Part shown: positions 1,633 to 27,749 of the stretch, one piece after another
Position numbering within the stretch: the first letter of the stretch is position 1
Layout: each line of letters opens with the position of its first letter
From: an uncultured Neomegalonema sp.
Lineage (GTDB): Bacteria > Pseudomonadota > Alphaproteobacteria > Rhodobacterales > Rhodobacteraceae
Assembly (NCBI GenBank): GCA_938034615.1
Contig: CALHLW010000206.1
Span: 1 to 38,492 of the forward strand
Direction: 5' to 3'
DNA: 38,492 nt
Notes under the pieces: generated by a model
Told to the model about the DNA's origin: nothing
Database searches by the model: none
What the model saw: the letters and a program-made list of their open reading frames with translations, nothing else
Made by a program: the position numbers and the translations under genes

Positions 1633-1777
1633 GGCGGGTCTCCCTGAGCTTGTGTTTCGGGCAGAATGCGCGGATTCTCAGATTTTGACAAACGACTGTT
1701 CGCCATCATGCGTGGGCTTGCCAATCGAGGGCAGGGCGGGTTAAAGGTTCGATCTTCGTTCTCTATGCAGCACGGCC

Positions 1778-3949
1778 ATGCCCGATGACATGACAGAGGC
1801 GCGTGTGCGCCCCAAAGACCTGCCCACAGGCTACCATCTCGCCCATTTCCGCGAGATGCTGAGCTTCGTCGAGCGGCTCTATGGCGGCATTCTGAGCCAG
1901 ACGGAGCGCGCATGGATCGCCGATTTCCGAGCGCTCGACACGAACGCCCAGTCCCTGTTCGTGCGCATGGCCAACCGAAAAGGCTCGGTCTTTCGCACCG
2001 GCCATTTCGATTATGCGGACGTGGACGACGTGGATTTGCGACTGGTCGATCTGACCGCTTCGGGCTTTGTCTCTCCCCCGCTCGAAAAGGATTATGGGGC
2101 TGCGCTTGCCATTCTGTCGAAGGATGAACTCCTCGATCTTCTGGCCGAAAACCATGCTGACGAGGGCGTCCGCAAAAGCTGGACGAAGCCTAATGTCATC
2201 GCCGCCGCTCGCGAACGAATGGCCTTCGCGGAATGTTTCGGCGAGGCGCGCGGGGCCGGGTTTGCGGCGCAACGGCGCAAGCGTCCCCTGCGCTACCTGC
2301 TCTACCTCTATTTTGGGCGCATGACGGATGGGTTGACCAGCTTTGCCATGCGCGATCTCGGCCTTGTCCGCACCAACAGCTTTCGTTCGGAATTCGAGGC
2401 CCGCTTCGCCGAGCGCGCGGAAGCAGAAGAAACCTTCCGCTACGCCGAACGCATCGCATGGCTCGACCGCTGCGAGACGTCGCAGATCGAGGCGATGGCG
2501 CGAGAGGCTTCCGTCTGGCCTACGCCCTGTGAAACGGCGGCACCGCTCCGCGATACCCTGTTGCACGCGCTGGGGCGACATCTGGAAAAATCCGGCGATG
2601 CAGAGCCTGCGCGCAGGCTCTACGCGCTGGGCGCGTCCCCGGAATGTGGCGAGCGCGAGGTACGCCTTGCCTGGGCCGCTGGAGAGAAAGAAGCCGTGCG
2701 CGAACGCCTCGAATCCATGATCGCCTCCCCCGGCAGCGATGGCGAAGCCCTCTTCGCGCAGGATTTTCTCGCTCGCAAGTTCGGCGGTAAGCGCACGAGC
2801 CTCATCACCGACATGCTGCGCGAAGCGCCGACCGTGGCCTTGGACGAATCCAACCGTGCATCACCGGAAAAGGGTGCCGTCGCATGGTTCGAGCGCAAGG
2901 GCTGGACCGCTGACCACGCCGAGAATATCCCGTGGCGCACCCTGTTCGGCCTGCTGTTCTGGGGCATCATCTATGACGGCGATACGGCCCGCCTGCACAA
3001 CGCATTCGAGCGGATGCCGGGGGCGCTGCGTGACGGCACGTTCTACATCACCCACCGCGATGCCATCGAAGCCCGCCTCGCCCTGCTCGACCGCCCCGAT
3101 ACCGCCATGGCCACGCTGCTGACCACGATCACCGAGCGGTACGGCACTCTGACCCCGCTATTCCGCTGGTATCCCGACATGATCGAGCGGCTGCGCCCCT
3201 TGCTCTACCACGCCCCCAAAAATGCGCTTGCCGCGGTCCTGCGCGCCATGGCCTCGGATTACCGAAACCGCAAGGATGGCTTTCCCGACCTCATTCTCCA
3301 CAGGGAAGACGCGCTTCGTCTCATCGAGATCAAGACCGAGAACGACCAAATCCGCCGCAATCAACTCGTCCAGCTCGAACTGCTGCGCGAAGCGGGGTTC
3401 GACGTCGAAATCAACCGCATCGCGTGGATCGTGGACCCCGACCAGACATATGTGGTCGTGGATATCGAAACCACCGGAGGCCGCGCCCCCTTCCACCGCG
3501 TCACAGAGATTGGCGCGGTCAAGATGCGCGGCGGTGAAGTCGTGGATCGCTGGCAGTCCCTCGTGAACCCCGAACGCTCCATCCCTGCTACCATCACACG
3601 ATTGACCGGCATCACCAACGAGATGGTCGCCGATGCCCCGGTCTTTGCGGATGTGGCGGATGAATTCGCCGAGTTCATGGGCGATGCGATCTTCGTCGCC
3701 CATAACGTCCGGTTCGATTACGGTTTTCTATCGGCGGAATTCGGGCGGCTGGAAAAGCGTTTCCGCTATCCCACGCTCTGCACGTGTCAGTCGATGCGAA
3801 AGCTCTTCAAGGGTCTGCCATCCTACAGCCTGAAGAACCTCTGCCACCATTTCGGCGTCCCGCTCGAAAGCCATCACCGCGCCCTTTGCGATGCGGAGGC
3901 AGCGGCGGGGTTGCTGCTCAAAATAAACGAGCGGCGGATGGCCCCGTAG
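1778..3949 (+). CDS. FAN1-like VRR-NUC nuclease fused to a C-terminal DEDDh (DnaQ-like) 3'-5' exonuclease
   Basis: 723 aa ORF. N-terminal YHLAHFREMLSFVERLYGGILSQTERAWIADFRALDTNAQSLFVRMANRKGSVFR resembles the N-terminus of bacterial FAN1. VRR-NUC motif GFPDLILHREDALRLIEIKTENDQIRRNQ. Exonuclease motifs VVVDIETTGG, FVAHNVRFDYGFL and HRALCDAEAA. Confidence 0.85.
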   Translation: MPDDMTEARVRPKDLPTGYHLAHFREMLSFVERLYGGILSQTERAWIADFRALDTNAQSLFVRMANRKGSVFRTGHFDYADVDDVDLRLVDLTASGFVSPPLEKDYGAALAILSKDELLDLLAENHADEGVRKSWTKPNVIAAARERMAFAECFGEARGAGFAAQRRKRPLRYLLYLYFGRMTDGLTSFAMRDLGLVRTNSFRSEFEARFAERAEAEETFRYAERIAWLDRCETSQIEAMAREASVWPTPCETAAPLRDTLLHALGRHLEKSGDAEPARRLYALGASPECGEREVRLAWAAGEKEAVRERLESMIASPGSDGEALFAQDFLARKFGGKRTSLITDMLREAPTVALDESNRASPEKGAVAWFERKGWTADHAENIPWRTLFGLLFWGIIYDGDTARLHNAFERMPGALRDGTFYITHRDAIEARLALLDRPDTAMATLLTTITERYGTLTPLFRWYPDMIERLRPLLYHAPKNALAAVLRAMASDYRNRKDGFPDLILHREDALRLIEIKTENDQIRRNQLVQLELLREAGFDVEINRIAWIVDPDQTYVVVDIETTGGRAPFHRVTEIGAVKMRGGEVVDRWQSLVNPERSIPATITRLTGITNEMVADAPVFADVADEFAEFMGDAIFVAHNVRFDYGFLSAEFGRLEKRFRYPTLCTCQSMRKLFKGLPSYSLKNLCHHFGVPLESHHRALCDAEAAAGLLLKINERRMAP

Positions 3950-8946: not shown

Positions 8947-10165
8947 GGCTTCAGCCTCCGATGCAACATCCGACGGACCGGAGCTACTGCTCTCCGACCT
9001 TGCGGACAAGCGCCCCGTGATCTTGCAACTCGTGCCGCGCCTCGACGAGGGCGGAGTAGAACGCGGTACGCTGGAGATTGCCTCGGCCATCGTTCAGGCG
9101 GGCGGACGGGCCATTGTCGCCTCCGCCGGGGGGCGCCTCGCCTCGCGCCTGACGTCGATAGGTGGCGAATTCGTCGAGATGCCGGTGCAGACCAAGAATG
9201 TCCTCTCCATGCGTCGGAATGCCCGCCGCATCGCCGACCTGGTCAACAGCGAGAAGATCGATCTTATCCACGCCCGCAGCCGCGCCCCTGCATGGAGCGG
9301 CTATTGGGCCTCCCGCCGCACAGGGGCCGCCTTCGTGACCACCTATCACGGCTCCTACAACGAGGATTTCCCGCTCAAACGCCGCTACAATGCCGTCATG
9401 GCCAAGGGCAACCCGACCATCGCCGTCTCCGATTTCATCGCGCAGATGATTCGCGAGCGCCACGGCCTGCTCGATGACCGAATCATGACGATCCCGCGCG
9501 GAGCCGATCTCTCCGTCTTTGATCCCCAAGCCATGAAGGGCGAGCGTATCGCTCAGCTTGCCGACCGCTGGGGTTTGACCGACGAAACACGGCCTATTCT
9601 ATTGCTTCCGGGGCGTCTGACCCGGTGGAAAGGTCAAGAAGTCTTCATCGACGCCTGCGCACTGCTTCGCGAGAAACGCGGTCCCGATTTCCTTGGCCTC
9701 ATGATCGGGGGCGCGCCTGATGGCTCGTCCTACCCTGACGATCTCGAAAAGCGCGCGCGCGAGAAAGGCTGCACCGACGTCATCAAAATTGCCGGATCGT
9801 GCAACGACATGCCTGCTGCTTATCGTCTCGCCGGGTGCGCCGTCTCCGCTTCGACTGACCCTGAAGCCTTCGGTCGCGTGGCGGTTGAAGCGCAGGCCAT
9901 GGGTCGCCCCATCATTGCCACCAACCATGGCGGATCGCGCGAGACCGTTGATGACGGCATCACAGGCGCTCTGGTCGAGCCGGGCAATGCGGCAAAGATG
10001 GCCGAGGCCATGGATGCTTTCCTCGAGCTGGACGAAGCAACTTGTGACCGCATCGGCAAACTCGCGCGCCTGCGGGTGCAGCGCCTGTTTTCGACTGCCC
10101 GGATGCAGGCATCGACACTCGATGTCTACGAGCGGGCGACGGGGTTGGTCTTTCCCGCCCGATAA
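8945..10165 (+). CDS. Glycosyltransferase family 4 (GT-B)
   Basis: PVILQLVPRLDEGGVERGTLEIASAIVQAGG, LLLPGRLTRWKGQEVFIDA, EAFGRVAVEAQAMGRPIIATNHGGSRETV. Start taken as MASASDATS (8945). Confidence 0.93.
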   Translation: MASASDATSDGPELLLSDLADKRPVILQLVPRLDEGGVERGTLEIASAIVQAGGRAIVASAGGRLASRLTSIGGEFVEMPVQTKNVLSMRRNARRIADLVNSEKIDLIHARSRAPAWSGYWASRRTGAAFVTTYHGSYNEDFPLKRRYNAVMAKGNPTIAVSDFIAQMIRERHGLLDDRIMTIPRGADLSVFDPQAMKGERIAQLADRWGLTDETRPILLLPGRLTRWKGQEVFIDACALLREKRGPDFLGLMIGGAPDGSSYPDDLEKRAREKGCTDVIKIAGSCNDMPAAYRLAGCAVSASTDPEAFGRVAVEAQAMGRPIIATNHGGSRETVDDGITGALVEPGNAAKMAEAMDAFLELDEATCDRIGKLARLRVQRLFSTARMQASTLDVYERATGLVFPAR

Positions 10166-11367
10166 GCGTCAAGCCCCAGCCGCGAAAGGGGCCGCCCCAG
10201 CATCCCCGTCACCAGCGCGGCAAGGATCGGCGGCGCGGGCCAGTGCAACGAAATCGGCCCCGTGATCCGGTCGCGTAACACCGGCAAAGCGCGGCTGTCC
10301 GATTGATAAACCGGCGTGAACAGGCGGCTCATCGTCTGGAACAACCGAACATGCCCCTGCCGCAACTGCGCGAAGCTCGCTCCGATCTCCGCCCGGCCTT
10401 CGGTCGCAACCGCATGGGCGAGCGCGAACGCATCCAGCAGCGCCATGTTCGCTCCCTGCCCGAGTTGCGGACTGGTCGCGTGATAGCTGTCGCCGATATG
10501 TACGATCCCGTCGCCATAGGGTCGCGACAGGGTGCGATGGCGATAGGTCGCCCAGGCCAGCGCATCATGGCTGTCGATCCCGTCTAGCAGAATCGCGGTG
10601 TCGGGCCAGAGCGCCCGGACCTCATCCTTCCACGCATCGAGCGGCCTTGCGCGCCAATCGTCCAGCCCACCATGGGGCAGGCTCCAGAAGAATGTCGCCT
10701 TTTCGGGCGCTGCGGCAGTGGCGCTCCCGACCGGCAGGACACCCACCATCTTCGAAGCCCGATAATACCGCTGTTCGAGGGCATGGGGCGAGAATGGCCC
10801 ACCCTTCGGCCAGTCCAGCGTCGCCCAGAGCGCTCCGTAGGGCAGGGCGCGGGCCGGATGCCGATCACTCAACGCCGACTCGCTGCCCAACGCATCCACG
10901 ATCAGATCGAACGGCCCGGTCGGCGCGTAATCCGCGAAGGTCAACGTCCCGCGCGATGCTCCCTTCACGATCATGCCGGGGCGCAGAGTCACTGCCTCGC
11001 GTTTCACAGCTTCATAGAGCGCATCGAACAGCGCCGAACGCTGGATGCCAAGCCCCCGATACTCCGGATCCAGCGCCGCATAGCTCACATCGAGAACGAC
11101 GGCCCCGCTTGGCTCGGATCGCCCGAAAATCCGGTCGACCCAAGCCCCCCGCGCCGCAATCCTATCGGCCAGACCGAGCGTCTCAAGAACTGCCATGCCT
11201 GTCGGTTGCAGCATGAAGCCCGATCCGACAGGCTGCGGCGCTTCGAACTGCTCGAATAAGGTCACGGCATGTCCCTGCCGTGCGTGCATCAGGGCACTGG
11301 CAAGCCCGCCAATCCCCGCGCCGCAGACCGCAATCGCCAGTTTCGTGGAGGGAGTTCTGCCCGTCAT
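10126..11367 (-). CDS. FAD-dependent monooxygenase (NAD(P)/FAD oxidoreductase)
   Basis: Rossmann GAGIGGLASALMHARQGHAVTLFE; second FAD motif VHIGDSYHATSPQLGQGANMALLDAFAL. Confidence 0.92.
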   Translation of the reverse strand: MTGRTPSTKLAIAVCGAGIGGLASALMHARQGHAVTLFEQFEAPQPVGSGFMLQPTGMAVLETLGLADRIAARGAWVDRIFGRSEPSGAVVLDVSYAALDPEYRGLGIQRSALFDALYEAVKREAVTLRPGMIVKGASRGTLTFADYAPTGPFDLIVDALGSESALSDRHPARALPYGALWATLDWPKGGPFSPHALEQRYYRASKMVGVLPVGSATAAAPEKATFFWSLPHGGLDDWRARPLDAWKDEVRALWPDTAILLDGIDSHDALAWATYRHRTLSRPYGDGIVHIGDSYHATSPQLGQGANMALLDAFALAHAVATEGRAEIGASFAQLRQGHVRLFQTMSRLFTPVYQSDSRALPVLRDRITGPISLHWPAPPILAALVTGMLGRPLSRLGLDAYRAGKTNPVARS

Positions 11368-11469
11368 GCCCTGTTCCGGTCGCCTCTGGGAGGTTGCGAC
11401 ATAGCAGGATGATCCGGGGCGCGTCGAGACTCGCCGTCATCGGCATCGGGCAATCGCCGGCAAAGGTCT

Positions 11470-11496
11470 CTGCCACGGATCGAGGTCCGGGGCAGG
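11470..11496. repeat. Partial copy (one arm) of the type B palindromic element
   Basis: gatcgaggtccggggcagg matches the right arm of the element at 19313-19380. Confidence 0.55.
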
Positions 11497-11516
11497 TACT
11501 CGATTTCACGCCACGA

Positions 11517-12413
11517 TCAGCCTCGCTTCAGACAGTCCAATCGCACAGTTGCGGCCGTCCCAATGGCATAAAGCCCCTGTTCCGTGCGCTCGCGTCCGCG
11601 CGTGCCGTCGATGGCATGGCGGGTCTTCGCGCGCTCCAGAAAGGACGCCACCGCGCGCGCTTCGGTCACGACCGCCAGATGCTTCAAAATCTTGCCGGTC
11701 AGGCGGCTGGCCTCGACCGAGTCGATCTTCGCTTTCAGAACGCCGATCACCCGACCCTTGCTGTCGAGAACCGGCCCACCCGAATGCCCCCGCCGCACAT
11801 CGCCCATCACGCCCACAAGACCCCGCTTGCGCGGATCGCTGAGATCGTAATTCACGATGGCCGGTGTCAGACGCGGTTTCAGACGGATGCGTCCCTCTTG
11901 TGGAAATCCTATAACTGCAACTGGCTCACCGCCGGGCGGCAGATGGGGCGCCAGGCGTAGATAATGCCGTGTGCGATAACTCGTATCGAGCAGCGCCAGA
12001 TCATTCTCGTCATCCAGCGCGACGATACGCACGGGCAGACGACGCGGCGAATTCGGGATACGCAACTCCACCGCATCGCAGGGTTTTACCACGTGGGCGC
12101 TGGTCAGGATCGTCCCGCTCGCATTCACCGCAAAACCCGCGCCCGCACTATAAAACCGTACAGGCCGCGCCGCTTCGGCCCTCCTGATCGCATCGCCCCG
12201 CGCGAGAGTTCGGCGGCGATTTCGATCATATTCGGTCTTCAGTCGCACGGCTTCGGCGGAGGTCACTTCCCGGCCCGTACACCGCTTGCGGCGGACGGGT
12301 TGGACGATTCCACGCTCCGAATCCCAGCAATTCACGACTTCCATTGCGCTGTCGGACGCAAGGGTCGGGGTGGTGGCCAGAAGGGCGGCGATCAGGGGCA
12401 TCCAGATATTCAT
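11517..12413 (-). CDS. Trypsin-like (S1-family) serine peptidase with signal peptide
   Basis: 298 aa; signal MNIWMPLIAALLATTPTLA; triad segments LTSAHVV, DDENDLALL and GHSGGPVLDSKGRVIGV. Confidence 0.88.
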   Translation of the reverse strand: MNIWMPLIAALLATTPTLASDSAMEVVNCWDSERGIVQPVRRKRCTGREVTSAEAVRLKTEYDRNRRRTLARGDAIRRAEAARPVRFYSAGAGFAVNASGTILTSAHVVKPCDAVELRIPNSPRRLPVRIVALDDENDLALLDTSYRTRHYLRLAPHLPPGGEPVAVIGFPQEGRIRLKPRLTPAIVNYDLSDPRKRGLVGVMGDVRRGHSGGPVLDSKGRVIGVLKAKIDSVEASRLTGKILKHLAVVTEARAVASFLERAKTRHAIDGTRGRERTEQGLYAIGTAATVRLDCLKRG

Positions 12414-15221: not shown

Positions 15222-15737
15222 ATGCCGAGCCTGCGTGTCGTTCTGAAAATCCTGCATTCGCTGTCCGCTGCCGGGCTGCTCGGCGGGCTGGCCTGTTACA
15301 TGATCCTGCTGGTCTTCGCACCGCAAGACAACGCCGCCGCTTATGCCGATCTGCGCGAGTCGATTGCGATGGTCAGCGATTACGTGCTCGTCCCCTCACT
15401 CGCCGTCGCGCTGGTTTCGGGGTTGCTCGCCATGGCCTTCCACACGCCGTTCATGGACAAGGGCTGGGCATGGGCCAAGGCGGCCATGGGTCTCCTGATG
15501 TTCAAGGGCGTTCTTACGGTCGTGGGCGCAAAAGCCGATCATGCCGCCGTCCTCGCCCGTAAGATCGAGGAGGGTGCGATACCGCAGGAGGTGCTTGATT
15601 CCGCGATGCGCCACGAATGGGCGACCCTCTGGATCGTCATGGCGCTCACGGTTGCGAATGTCGTCCTCGGTGTCTGGCGCCCCAAATTTGCACGCCCACC
15701 AAAAGCGCAGTCCTCGTCACAGGAAAAAGCCACATGA
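15222..15737 (+). CDS. Small integral membrane protein (DUF2269-like)
   Basis: MPSLRVVLKILHSLSAAGLLGGLACYMILLVF..., four hydrophobic segments. Start moved to 15222; stop overlaps the next ATG (15734). Confidence 0.75.
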   Translation: MPSLRVVLKILHSLSAAGLLGGLACYMILLVFAPQDNAAAYADLRESIAMVSDYVLVPSLAVALVSGLLAMAFHTPFMDKGWAWAKAAMGLLMFKGVLTVVGAKADHAAVLARKIEEGAIPQEVLDSAMRHEWATLWIVMALTVANVVLGVWRPKFARPPKAQSSSQEKAT

Positions 15738-16774
15738 AGGCCGTTGTCTACGAGGCCTTTGGCCAACGCCCGACCCTCCAGACCGTCCCCGATCCGACCC
15801 CCGACCCGAACGGTGTGGTCATTCGCGTCATGGCCTCGGGCGTCTGCCGCAGCGATTTCCATGCATGGGGCGGTCACGACTCCACGGTCCAGCTTCCCCA
15901 CGTTCCCGGCCACGAACTCGCCGGAACCATCGAGGCGGTGGGCCGCGATGTCCGAAACTGGAAACCGGGCGACCGGGTAACGGTCCCCTTCGTCGGCGGT
16001 TGCGGCGCTTGCCCCCAATGCCACAGCGGCAATCAGCAGGTTTGCGACGATCAGTTCCAACCCGGCTTCACCCATTGGGGCAGCTTCGCGCAATACGTCG
16101 CAATCGGGCAGGCCGATCTCAACCTCGTCGGCCTGCCCGAAACCATGGATTTCGCCACCGCCGCCAGCCTCGGCTGCCGCTTCGTCACGGCCTATCGCGG
16201 CGTCGTCGATCAGGGCCGGGTGAAACCGGGTCAGTGGCTCGCGGTTCACGGATGCGGTGGCGTCGGCCTCTCGGCGATCATGATCGCCAAGGCGATGGGC
16301 GCGCGGACCGTGGCGGTGGATGTGACCGACCGCAGCCTCGCACTCGCACAGGAAATCGGCGCGGAAGTCATCGTGAAGGCGGGTAACACCGATGTGGTCG
16401 CTGCCGTCCGAGAGGCCACGGATGGCGGCGCGCATCTCTCCATCGACGCCCTCGGCATCCCGGAAACTTGCACCAACTCCGTCAAATCGCTCCGCAAGCG
16501 CGGTCGCCATATCCAGCTCGGCTGGATGCTCGGCGACGACAGCGCGCCTCCAATCCCCATGGACCTCGTTATGGGCAATGAGCTTGAAATCATCGGCAGC
16601 CACGGGATGCAGGCCCATCGCTATCCCGAGATGATGGCGCTGATCGCCACTGGCGCGCTCACCCCGTCCCGCCTGATTCACGAGAAAATCTCGCTCGACC
16701 AATCCATCGACGCTCTTGCGAATTTCGAGCAATACGAGCGGGCCGGGATCACGGTTATCACCGATTTTGACTGA
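15734..16774 (+). CDS. Zinc-dependent alcohol dehydrogenase family protein (MDR)
   Basis: MKAVVYEAFGQRP..., GVCRSDFHAWGGHD, PHVPGHELAGTIEAVG, GDRVTVPFVGGCGACPQCHSGNQQVC, LAVHGCGGVGLSA. Confidence 0.94.
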   Translation: MKAVVYEAFGQRPTLQTVPDPTPDPNGVVIRVMASGVCRSDFHAWGGHDSTVQLPHVPGHELAGTIEAVGRDVRNWKPGDRVTVPFVGGCGACPQCHSGNQQVCDDQFQPGFTHWGSFAQYVAIGQADLNLVGLPETMDFATAASLGCRFVTAYRGVVDQGRVKPGQWLAVHGCGGVGLSAIMIAKAMGARTVAVDVTDRSLALAQEIGAEVIVKAGNTDVVAAVREATDGGAHLSIDALGIPETCTNSVKSLRKRGRHIQLGWMLGDDSAPPIPMDLVMGNELEIIGSHGMQAHRYPEMMALIATGALTPSRLIHEKISLDQSIDALANFEQYERAGITVITDFD

Positions 16775-16792
16775 CTTTTCTTCGAGCCGATT

Positions 16793-17638
16793 ATGACGCC
16801 CCGCGCGCAGGCCATCCTCCTCATGTGCAGCGGCGTCCTGATGCTGGTGTTGAACGATGTGGCGGCGAAGTGGCTGGTGGCCCGCTACGACCCGGTGCAG
16901 ATCGCCTTTTTGCGCAGCGTCTTCGCCTTGCCGCTGGCGGCGATACTGGTGTGGTATTTTGACGGGCACAGCGGATTTCGCTCCGGTCGGGTCTGGGTCC
17001 ATGCCGTGCGGGGTGCGATGGTGCTGATCGCGACATGGGCGTTCTTCGGCTCCCTGCGGGTCTTGCCACTGGCGGAGGCGCAATCGCTGTTGTTCACCGC
17101 GCCAATCATCGTGGCCATCCTCGCAGCCCTCTTCACGAGCGAGGACGTCGAACCCCATCATTGGGCGAGTGTGGCCCTGGGTTTTGCCGGAGCGCTCGTG
17201 ATCGTGCAGCCCGGCAGGGCGGCCTTCCAACCGGAATCGCTCTACGCCCTGTCGGCGGCTTTTCTTTATGCGCTCATCATGCTCAGCGCCCGCTGGATCG
17301 ACGCGCGGGACAGCTTGTGGACCATGACGTTCTGGATGACCGTCTTCTCGGCATTGCTCGGGTCCGCGAGCCTCTTCGCAAGCTGGCCCGTGCCGGAGCC
17401 GATGGATGCGGCGCTGTTCACCGCGATGGCCGTGCTCGGCACAGGGGGGATGGCGCTGGTCAGTCAGGCATTTCGCATGGCCCCGGCCACCCTCGTCGCG
17501 CCGCTGGATTACACGGCGCTTCTCTGGGCGAGCATGATGGGCTGGCTGATATGGGGGACGGTGCCGGGATGGTCGGTCTATGCGGGCGCGGGGTTCATCG
17601 TCGCGGGGGGCATCATGGTTTTGCGGCGACAGGAATAA
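16793..17638 (+). CDS. EamA/DMT-family transporter
   Basis: 281 aa, about 10 hydrophobic segments, internally duplicated EamA-like halves (DVAAKWLVARYDPVQIAFLRSVFALP; LWASMMGWLIWGTVPGWSVYAGAGFIVAGGIMVLRR). Confidence 0.9.
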   Translation: MTPRAQAILLMCSGVLMLVLNDVAAKWLVARYDPVQIAFLRSVFALPLAAILVWYFDGHSGFRSGRVWVHAVRGAMVLIATWAFFGSLRVLPLAEAQSLLFTAPIIVAILAALFTSEDVEPHHWASVALGFAGALVIVQPGRAAFQPESLYALSAAFLYALIMLSARWIDARDSLWTMTFWMTVFSALLGSASLFASWPVPEPMDAALFTAMAVLGTGGMALVSQAFRMAPATLVAPLDYTALLWASMMGWLIWGTVPGWSVYAGAGFIVAGGIMVLRRQE

Positions 17639-17698
17639 GGGCTTGCGCCGCGCGCCATGGCGGTCATGGTCGGGAGAGGCAAACCGGAGATTTCCACC

Positions 17699-19246
17699 AT
17701 GGCCGAACCCCGCCGCCGTCGCCGTTCCGGCCCGTCCCCCCGCGACCGGGAGGCGACATCGGGCCAAATCCCTCAACTCCCGTGGAAGCAGCCCCGCAAT
17801 CCCTACGCCCCGCTGAAAGTCATCAGCGACGATCAGGTCGAGGCGATCCACCGGGCCTCGCTCCGGGTATTGGCCGAACTCGGTATCGAGTTGATGAGCG
17901 CCGAAGGCCGCGCGCTTTTCCGCGATGCTGGAGCCAAGGTCGATGAAACCACCGGCATCGTCTGCCTCGATCCGGCCTTGGTCGAGCAACTGATCTCCAC
18001 CGCCCCATCCGAGTTTACACTCACCCCGCGAAACCCTGCAAAAGCCTTGCATATCGGCGGCGACAGCATCGCTTTCGGCATGGTCGCCGGTCCCCCCTCC
18101 GTCCATGATTGCGTGAGCGGGCGTCGGTCGGGAAACATGCAGGATTTCGACAACTTTACCCGCCTCGCGCACCATTTCAACGCGATTCATATCATCGGCA
18201 ATCAGGTCTGCGCGCCGGTCGAACTGCCCGCCAATTCCCGGCATCTCGACACGTATAACGCCAACATCACCCTCTCGGATCTCTGCTATCATGTCAGCGC
18301 TATCGGGACAGGGCGGGCCATCGACGGTATCGCGATGCAGGCCATCGCGCGGGGGCTTTCGCTGGAGGAAATCTCGAAAAGTCCCGGCGTCACGACCATC
18401 ATATCGGTCAACTCTCCGCGCAAGTTCGACGACACCATGGCCGATGGCTTGATCGCCATGTCCCGCCATGGACAGCCGCCCGTCGTCACGCCCTTTACGC
18501 TCATGGGCGCGATGACCCCCGTGACCCTCGCCGCCGGTCTGACCCAGCAGAATGCGGAGGCCCTGTTCGGCATCGCGCTCTCGCAACTGGCCAATCCCGG
18601 CTCGCCGGTCATGTACGGTGCGTATACCTCCAACGTGGACATGCGCTCGGGCGCGCCCGCTTTCGGGACGCCGGAGAATACCAAGGCCAATATCGCCTCT
18701 GGCCAGCTCGCGCGGCGCTATAATTTGCCCTACCGTGCCTCCCCCACCAGCGCCTCGAATATCGTGGACGCCCAAGCCGCCTACGAGACGCAGATGGCGC
18801 TCTGGTCCTGCACGCTGGGCCACGCGAACCTGCATTACCACGCCGCCGGATGGATGGAGGGCGGCCTCTGCGCTTCGTATGAAAAACTGATCCTCGACGT
18901 GGAAATGCTCCAGCACATGATCGCTTTCCTCGATCCCATCGAAATCGACGAGGACACGCTGGCCTTCGAAGCGATGAAGGGCGTCCCGACAGGGGGCCAT
19001 TTCTTCGGCTCACCGCACACCATGGAGCGCTACGAGACGGCGTTCTACCAACCCATGCTCAGCGATTGGCAGAACCACGAAAATTGGGAACTCTCTGGCG
19101 CAAAAACCGCTACCGACCGCGCCACCGATCTCTGGCAACAAGCCCTGCGCGATTACGAACAGCCCCCCATGGACCCGGCAACCCGCGAAGAACTCGACGC
19201 CTACATCGCCCACCGAAAGGAAGAGATCGGCACCGGCGAGCCGTGA
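17699..19246 (+). CDS. Trimethylamine methyltransferase (MttB) family protein, non-pyrrolysine type
   Basis: VHDCVSGRRSGNMQDFDNFTRLAHHFNAIHIIGN, VNSPRKFDDTMADGLI, TPFTLMGAMTPVTLAAGLTQQNAEALFGIALSQLANPGSPVMYG. Continuous ORF with no in-frame amber codon. Confidence 0.9.
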   Translation: MAEPRRRRRSGPSPRDREATSGQIPQLPWKQPRNPYAPLKVISDDQVEAIHRASLRVLAELGIELMSAEGRALFRDAGAKVDETTGIVCLDPALVEQLISTAPSEFTLTPRNPAKALHIGGDSIAFGMVAGPPSVHDCVSGRRSGNMQDFDNFTRLAHHFNAIHIIGNQVCAPVELPANSRHLDTYNANITLSDLCYHVSAIGTGRAIDGIAMQAIARGLSLEEISKSPGVTTIISVNSPRKFDDTMADGLIAMSRHGQPPVVTPFTLMGAMTPVTLAAGLTQQNAEALFGIALSQLANPGSPVMYGAYTSNVDMRSGAPAFGTPENTKANIASGQLARRYNLPYRASPTSASNIVDAQAAYETQMALWSCTLGHANLHYHAAGWMEGGLCASYEKLILDVEMLQHMIAFLDPIEIDEDTLAFEAMKGVPTGGHFFGSPHTMERYETAFYQPMLSDWQNHENWELSGAKTATDRATDLWQQALRDYEQPPMDPATREELDAYIAHRKEEIGTGEP

Positions 19247-25686: not shown

Positions 25687-27504
25687 TTACGACGACAGAC
25701 GCCCCGCCGCTTCTGAGATCATCAGATAGGCCCGTCCCGTGCGCGTATTCGACAGATCGACGATGAGTTTCTCGTCATCGGTCTCATTCAGCAGGCGACG
25801 TCCCATATCCTCGTAGCGATCCATAAACTTCGCGCAGAGATGCTCGAAGCCCTTGTCTGCGCTCAACTTCGCCCGAATACGGCTCTGTTCGACCGGAGCG
25901 TCGATGCCGTCGATCCGATCACCGCCCGACCCGTCGAGATGGTTCTTCCATGTCTTGACCGGCACGAGGCGCGGAACGAAATCTTCCATGTAGAGATCGA
26001 TATCGGCCATCGACGCGAGCGTATCCTCGGCGCATTGCAGAAGGGATGCGGCTTCGGGATCGGTCAGCACGTCATAGAGCGCATCGAGCGTCTCGACATC
26101 CTCCTCGCTCTCGGGGAAGTTGGCCGCGCGGGTGAATTTCTGCCAGTTGATTGAATGACGCCGCTCCAGTTTGAAGGGCGCATCGGTGCTGTCATCCAGC
26201 GTATCGAGTTCGAGGGCCTCGTACTCGTCCGGTTCGCGGTCGAGGGCCACCGCCGATGGTGCTGCGGCAGCGACCGCCGCCCCGGCTCCAACAACCGCTG
26301 CTCCCATCGCGATACCGGAAGCGTCGTCCTCATTCTGGTCGTCATGCCGATATTCGACAGAATTATCACGGGCTTCATCGCCAATATCGTCGAATGGATC
26401 GACGGTCTCTCCGCTGTTACCGATGGTTCCCACGCGACGATCCGCATCCGAGAGGACCGGGCGCTCCCATCGGGCATTCGCCTTTGCATCGGCAAGACGC
26501 GCACGCAGGGCAGCGACGCCTTCTGCCGTATCATCGGCAAGTTCGGTTTCAGCGAAGTTCGCTTCCTCGCCCTCCCGCGCAAAGGTCGGCGCATCGGTCA
26601 GCATCTCTGCGGCATCGCTGTTTGCGGCGGCTTCGACACGCGCTTCATCGAGCGCAAAGTCAGTCACGTCCGACGGGGGCTCGATCTCTTCTTCACGGTC
26701 GATGCCTGCCGCAACGGCAGCCCCGATCCCGGCCATCCCGGCCCCTGCCGCTGCGACGCCGGTCCCGACCGCGCCCAGTGATGCCGGGGCAACCGAGACA
26801 GATCCATCATGATCGCCCGTCACGCGCTCCAGCGCCTCGCGCTCGGCACGCAGGGTCGTGGCAATATACTTCGCCCGTTTCTCGGCCCTTTCGGCCACAT
26901 CGTCGATATTGCGCGCTTGTGTGGATAGCGCTTCCTCGATCGCACGCATCTGCGAGTGCAAGGCGCTGATGGCATGGGTCGCGCGCTCGACTTCGCGGCG
27001 CAGGTGGCGCGGGGTTTCACCCGTCACTTCGCCCATCGTACCCAGCGCCAAGGGTCTTCCCGTTGCTTCGGCGGTCTGTGCGACTTGCGTCAGGCGCAGG
27101 GCGGCACTGGCAAGGTCTTGCGACTGGCGTTTGAGCTCCCCTGTACGGTGCAGCAGCCATGCGATTATCCAGATTAGCAGCAATGGGCCGAGGATTGCCG
27201 CTGCGATGAGCATCCAGTCGCCCGTGCCGATCCGCGACCCGACCACATTCATAGCATCGCCGGGATTATCGGGTAGCGAATAGCGCGCCCAGCAAAAGGC
27301 CGCCACGGCAGCGATCCAGACGAGCGATGCCAGCGCCGCAACGAAAAGCGGGCTCAGACCGCCACCCGACCGACGCACGGGGCGTGCCGTCGTCTGGGTC
27401 GACTGCGTTCGATCTCCCTCGCCGGGCCGGTCGAACAGATCGTCCAGTGGGTCGGCATCGGCGGACAGGACGAGCGGTTCCTCGCGCATGGCACTCTGGG
27501 TCAT
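25687..27504 (-). CDS. Conserved hypothetical membrane protein with coiled coil
   Basis: Start placed at MTQSAMREEP (27504). Two TM segments (LFVAALASLVWIAAVAAFCWARY; WMLIAAAILGPLLLIWIIAWLLH), coiled-coil region, Ala/Gly-rich stretches, conserved-looking C-terminus. Confidence 0.75.
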   Translation of the reverse strand: MTQSAMREEPLVLSADADPLDDLFDRPGEGDRTQSTQTTARPVRRSGGGLSPLFVAALASLVWIAAVAAFCWARYSLPDNPGDAMNVVGSRIGTGDWMLIAAAILGPLLLIWIIAWLLHRTGELKRQSQDLASAALRLTQVAQTAEATGRPLALGTMGEVTGETPRHLRREVERATHAISALHSQMRAIEEALSTQARNIDDVAERAEKRAKYIATTLRAEREALERVTGDHDGSVSVAPASLGAVGTGVAAAGAGMAGIGAAVAAGIDREEEIEPPSDVTDFALDEARVEAAANSDAAEMLTDAPTFAREGEEANFAETELADDTAEGVAALRARLADAKANARWERPVLSDADRRVGTIGNSGETVDPFDDIGDEARDNSVEYRHDDQNEDDASGIAMGAAVVGAGAAVAAAAPSAVALDREPDEYEALELDTLDDSTDAPFKLERRHSINWQKFTRAANFPESEEDVETLDALYDVLTDPEAASLLQCAEDTLASMADIDLYMEDFVPRLVPVKTWKNHLDGSGGDRIDGIDAPVEQSRIRAKLSADKGFEHLCAKFMDRYEDMGRRLLNETDDEKLIVDLSNTRTGRAYLMISEAAGRLSS

Positions 27505-27749
27505 AGCAGGCGTTCCCGGTCTTGGGGTCAGTTTCGCGCCTATCGTAAACGGGTGCGCTGCGAAACGGTAGTGAAAAGCGGCAGGTATGCTGAAGGGATT
27601 TCGCGCGCTGGGGGAAAGGGTTACACAGAATTGCTCAGTTGGCACCCGTGTGCGGTGTTCATCGTAGCCTGTCTTGCCGCCCGGCCAGGGGTGGGGCAGA
27701 AGAGGCGAATATCAATTGAGGCGGATACCGTGACAGCAGTTCAATCGCC

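Follow-up and report, generated by a model that had tools for sequence, protein, structure and literature searches.

Which role could be played in bacteria by a FAN1 nuclease that carries a second, exonucleolytic active site on the same polypeptide, and under which control would it be produced? FAN1 is investigated in connection with crosslink repair and because it affects CAG-repeat expansion, and DEDDh enzymes digest 3'-5'. The question is raised by one gene located in a 38,492-nucleotide stretch of DNA from an uncultured Neomegalonema sp., hereafter the window, in which the sequence-only reading had recognized a FAN1-like VRR-NUC nuclease joined to a DEDDh exonuclease. The features of the locus are collected in Table 1.

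Table 1. Fusion gene, domains, junction and predicted regulatory site, in window positions; residue numbers refer to the encoded protein.
Feature	Position	Strand	Basis and remarks
LexA (SOS) box GTTCGATCTTCGTTC, GTTC-N7-GTTC, predicted	1747..1761	+	16 bases upstream of ATG
FAN1-DEDDh fusion nuclease	1778..3949	+	723 aa
FAN1 HTH domain, residues 19-98	1832..2071	+	Pfam PF21315 FAN1_HTH, 2.3e-19
FAN1 central helical region, residues 99-449	2072..3124	+	phmmer to PaFAN1 4r89 (residues 18-553); Foldseek to 5y7g
Active-site glutamate E382, inside central helical region	2921-2923	+	invariant in fused and stand-alone FAN1s
VRR-NUC domain, residues 450-546: D504, E517, K519, Q529	3125..3415	+	Pfam PF08774 VRR_NUC, 3.5e-15; residues invariant
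Junction VDPDQ, residues 552-556, between last VRR-NUC strand and first exonuclease strand	3431..3445	+	model strands 542-551, 557-565
DEDDh 3'-5' exonuclease domain, residues 559-712: D562, E564, D647, H700, D705	3452..3913	+	Pfam RNase_T 6.8e-38; DnaQ/DinG/PolC structural matches

The frame begins with ATG and is open throughout. A full-length bacterial FAN1, composed of HTH, helical middle and VRR-NUC, runs in it into a complete DEDDh exonuclease on one chain. In the profile search, FAN1_HTH, VRR_NUC and RNase_T each scored above the curated Pfam cut-off, and no match to a GIY-YIG domain was obtained with Pfam in the fusion protein. Using phmmer, residues 18-553 were aligned with Pseudomonas aeruginosa FAN1 (PaFAN1, PDB 4r89, 7.7e-33) and residues 555-718 with a PolC-type exonuclease (2p1j, 6e-28), DinG and DnaQ exonucleases being matched as well. 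The FAN1-like character previously proposed for the residues preceding the VRR-NUC is therefore borne out both by the HTH profile and by the PaFAN1 alignment. The best NCBIfam match of the exonuclease domain is NF005906 (the PRK07883 group of DEDD exonuclease proteins), at 200 bits, a score below the whole-protein cut-off of that model; the members of this group presumably contain GIY-YIG. The metal-binding residues of PaFAN1 are E386, D507, E522 and K524 (PMC4348246) and correspond in the alignment to E382, D504, E517 and K519 of the fusion protein. The VRR-NUC and DEDDh residues reported earlier as intact are indeed all present, and so is E382, which was absent from that list. The fusion gene is single-copy in its own genome, where the sole other match is a separate DnaQ-like protein with 37% identity over the exonuclease.

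The predicted structure is in agreement with the profiles. An AlphaFold2 model was built on a 43-sequence alignment, from which four plasmid-record rows were left out, and reached a pLDDT of 91 and a pTM of 0.81, the latter value not proving the relative placing of the two active sites or the DNA path between them. The top Foldseek matches are PaFAN1-DNA complexes (5y7g_A, E 1.4e-25, TM 0.85 by target), which upholds the FAN1 fold; human FAN1 follows, then DinG, DnaQ, PolC and TREX-type exonucleases. The junction between the two nucleases carries a conserved DP-Q motif, and the segment corresponding to residues 550-558 measures exactly 9 residues in 30/30 aligned fused proteins. The constancy of this length suggests that geometry matters.

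The taxonomic survey retrieved 32 non-redundant loci with both parts in one open frame, distributed among Alpha- and Gammaproteobacteria. A sequencing or assembly error, or an artificial joining of two ORFs, is ruled out by the presence of the same fusion at all these loci, and a stand-alone FAN1 lying beside a separate exonuclease was rejected as well because the single frame is open throughout. The architecture is present in 7/14 genomes of the genus of the window; other alphaproteobacterial carriers include two Bradyrhizobium plasmids, and gammaproteobacterial carriers include Pseudoalteromonas. FAN1 matches were found in 55 of the 399 sampled genomes of the phylum. The fused matches of this sample display ~31% identity or above and open frames of ~720-780 aa, apart from a truncated one of 613 aa, and the stand-alone matches mostly 23-29% identity and 540-600 aa. 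In a sampled gammaproteobacterial order, 13/248 genomes possess the fused form. The fusion gene is widespread yet sporadic, as the counts for the genus and for this order show, and its function is therefore accessory. Beyond Proteobacteria, the search covered plasmid and phage collections and one contig scan, a method that detects close relatives only. A phage or defence origin was also considered and rejected, the PADLOC, phage and viral-contig matches spanning essentially the exonuclease alone.

Sequence comparison within the family indicates that the two parts descend as a unit, both active sites being conserved through long divergence. FAN1_HTH and VRR_NUC were both detected at E <= 0.001 in 30/30 aligned fused proteins, and all nine catalytic positions are invariant in the same set with the exception of E564 (29/30). 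When 61 FAN1 parts were placed in a tree, those of the fused proteins clustered in a single group (support 100/100) apart from the stand-alone bacterial FAN1s, to which the family is ~22-27% identical. The fused domains also group together in the exonuclease tree, bar one long-branch row of unsure placement (L097), a DEDDh-GIY-YIG protein from Cupriavidus. Pairwise identities of the FAN1 part and of the exonuclease part correlate at 0.94, as expected from joint descent, and the exonuclease is the more conserved of the two (mean pairwise identity of 61% vs 39%). Within the fused clade of the FAN1 tree is nested a FAN1 devoid of exonuclease, L014 (G001:C163:16628-18238), which originates from the same genus as the window. 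A minimum of two changes is required on this tree, consistent with a single gain and a single loss of the exonuclease, and L014 represents an apparent loss within the genus. In another member, L038, E564 of the DxE motif is replaced by G, and its exonuclease may be impaired as a result. Since L038 has lost E564 and L014 lacks the domain altogether, the exonuclease is dispensable in some lineages.

The predicted LexA box of the gene had not been noticed in the sequence-only reading. GTTC-N7-GTTC is matched once in the window; given that ~0.9 match is expected by chance over its whole length, this lone occurrence carries little weight alone. The weight lies in its conservation across the family. 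LexA motifs are class-specific, GTTC-N7-GTTC in Alphaproteobacteria vs CTGT-N8-ACAG in Gammaproteobacteria (PMC3323433). The exact alphaproteobacterial motif is located near the start of 17/17 alphaproteobacterial fused genes, in either orientation and with a variable seven-base spacer, the background in control windows of the same loci being 2/531. The gammaproteobacterial motif, with at most one mismatch, is found in 13/13 testable gammaproteobacterial fused genes, the truncated or split loci L044 and L045 being left out of the count, and in 28/561 control windows. Since the loci are related by descent, all these counts serve as description only and are not converted into a probability. Upstream of lexA in the genome of the window are two GAAC-N7-GAAC boxes; an exact LexA box was not found at recA of this genome, which has a one-mismatch version only. 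No LexA box is present within 250 bases upstream of the start of L014. As every fused gene with a testable start region is preceded by an SOS box, either exact or with one mismatch, the fusion gene probably encodes a damage-induced repair enzyme that would cut and chew back.

Among the stand-alone FAN1s, 10/29 possess CTGT-N8-ACAG with at most one mismatch, nearly all of them in one family. The stand-alone FAN1 genes L052-L059 (family f194) carry CTGT-N8-ACAG-like boxes at their start, unlike nearly all other sampled stand-alones. PA1865 is reported to be damage-induced and has been described as a crosslink-unhooking repair gene in a study where the PaFAN1 papers are cited (PMC12796719); in view of these induction data, the fused FAN1s may not be the only ones that are induced by damage.

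The preferred reading, to which a probability of roughly 0.68 is assigned, is that of a LexA-controlled, damage-induced repair nuclease with two active sites, the FAN1 part incising flaps or crosslinks and the exonuclease trimming the new 3' end. FAN1 is known to cut 5' flaps at a distance of a few nucleotides beyond the junction, and also possesses 5'-3' exonuclease activity (PMC4103454, PMC9635880). The proposed sequence of events can be summarized as follows. DNA damage would inactivate LexA and the fusion enzyme would be produced. The FAN1 part would then bind a 5' flap, a stalled fork or a crosslink and incise the duplex at a depth of a few nucleotides. Starting at the 3' end thus created, the exonuclease would degrade 3'-5' and trim the incised strand back to the lesion or past it, so that repair synthesis could fill the resulting gap from a clean 3' end. 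This division of labour is put forward by analogy, and the exonuclease is assigned the activity, polarity and coupling expected from its family. That a single enzyme could act with opposite polarities where DNA is branched or crosslinked had already been suggested for this locus; we infer the same, with the SOS boxes and the fixed junction as backing. A further proposal, which we hold to be evenly balanced, is that of an SOS-controlled crosslink-repair enzyme combining incision and 3'-5' resection in one rigid polypeptide, an independent counterpart of UvrC/Cho-based unhooking that would have kept LexA control despite the change of motif between the two classes.

The architecture can be compared with several known systems. 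PaFAN1 (4R89/5Y7G) has HTH, helical middle, VRR-NUC and the four metal-binding residues in common with the fusion, but stops where the exonuclease of the latter starts, and the fused family forms a separate clade. Human FAN1 shares the VRR-NUC core and the active site (E834, D960, E975, K977; PMC4348246) but carries a UBZ finger at its N-terminus (PMC9635880) and is devoid of a DEDDh domain. The nearest functional parallel is the mycobacterial Cho-epsilon exonuclease fusion, for which an incise-then-digest role has been proposed (PMC1564403). Like the Cupriavidus protein L097, it associates a proofreading-type DEDDh exonuclease with a repair endonuclease, which is GIY-YIG in these Cho-like proteins and FAN1/VRR-NUC here; the exonuclease is N-terminal in L097 and C-terminal in the FAN1 fusion. 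The best fold match of the exonuclease domain is Staphylococcus aureus DinG (8ZEF; 34% identity, 1.6 A over 168 columns), where the partner of the exonuclease is a helicase.

Alternatively, the exonuclease domain might work mainly on other substrates, such as 3' ends that are mismatched or blocked and need polishing before a polymerase extends them, or the ends of RNA, the FAN1 part serving as a DNA-targeting module without any coupled incision and trimming. The resemblance to proofreading-type PolC, DinG and DnaQ, the existence of RNases among DEDDh enzymes and the weak Rv2179c-like exoribonuclease matches obtained for 16/30 members are all compatible with such a role. We nevertheless consider it unlikely: among protein families the PRK07883 group is matched best, such a domain is attached to a GIY-YIG nuclease in L097, a long-branch relative in the exonuclease tree, and the length of the junction is constant in 30/30 proteins. 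The last point also weakens the idea of a loose fusion, in which two independent, uncoupled nucleases would be retained for the sake of shared induction. That the close relative L014 retains FAN1 without the exonuclease would be accommodated by this idea, but the fusion has been kept in two classes with an identical junction length, and L014, the only apparent exonuclease loss, is also without a LexA box, although this is a single case. Independent action of this kind is judged improbable, more so than action on other substrates.

A function outside repair was also weighed. T6SS effectors are among the proteins that contain VRR-NUC domains (PMC9635880), and the PADLOC candidate PDC-S48 is similar to the exonuclease, as could be expected from an anti-phage or interbacterial nuclease. 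The PADLOC match is, however, limited to the exonuclease (residues 556-718), and the complete FAN1 architecture is accompanied by SOS boxes. In addition, none of the neighbours scanned in the window was recognized as a defence gene, the neighbourhood is not conserved and the phage collection is without a full-length relative. Such a function is accordingly regarded as very improbable.

The natural attachment of a second nuclease at a fixed distance shows which activity has, in these bacteria, been paired with FAN1 by evolution. The predicted SOS boxes place the fused FAN1 family in the damage response of two classes and make bacterial FAN1 function directly testable in culturable hosts, e.g. 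Bradyrhizobium and Pseudoalteromonas. No earlier description of the FAN1-exonuclease architecture was found in the open literature, most subscription papers being outside the scope of the search.

In the window, the fusion gene is flanked by a divergent class II aldolase gene and a convergent META-domain gene. No neighbour recurs across the whole family in 18 regions of ~14 kb and the plasmid loci (the fused gene was not recovered in region L112), and a conserved operon partner was rejected since none is shared family-wide. Two long ORFs of the window, 15539-19000 (-) with 1153 aa and 25687-27645 (-) with 652 aa, have no Pfam match at 0.001. On the Bradyrhizobium plasmid p172_1 (L028), an SOS response-associated peptidase gene (9158-9907) immediately precedes the fusion (9983-12139), a pairing which is not general. 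Relatives are labeled in RefSeq only as "exonuclease domain-containing protein". For one Bradyrhizobium copy (L027:9995-12172), the RefSeq CDS start at 10571 clips the FAN1 N-terminus of an intact longer frame, and a start clipped in this way may help to hide the architecture. Another genome harbours, in addition to an intact fused gene located elsewhere, a second FAN1-like stretch with in-frame stops and a degraded appearance (G1121:C12:35796-36876). On a Methylorubrum megaplasmid (L098:1-2145), a DEDDh exonuclease (residues ~501-672) follows a long N-terminal region that resembles SEL1-type repeats on visual inspection. Finally, one alphaproteobacterial chromosome carries two copies of the fusion (G397:C1:1298697-1300292 and 5689465-5691063).
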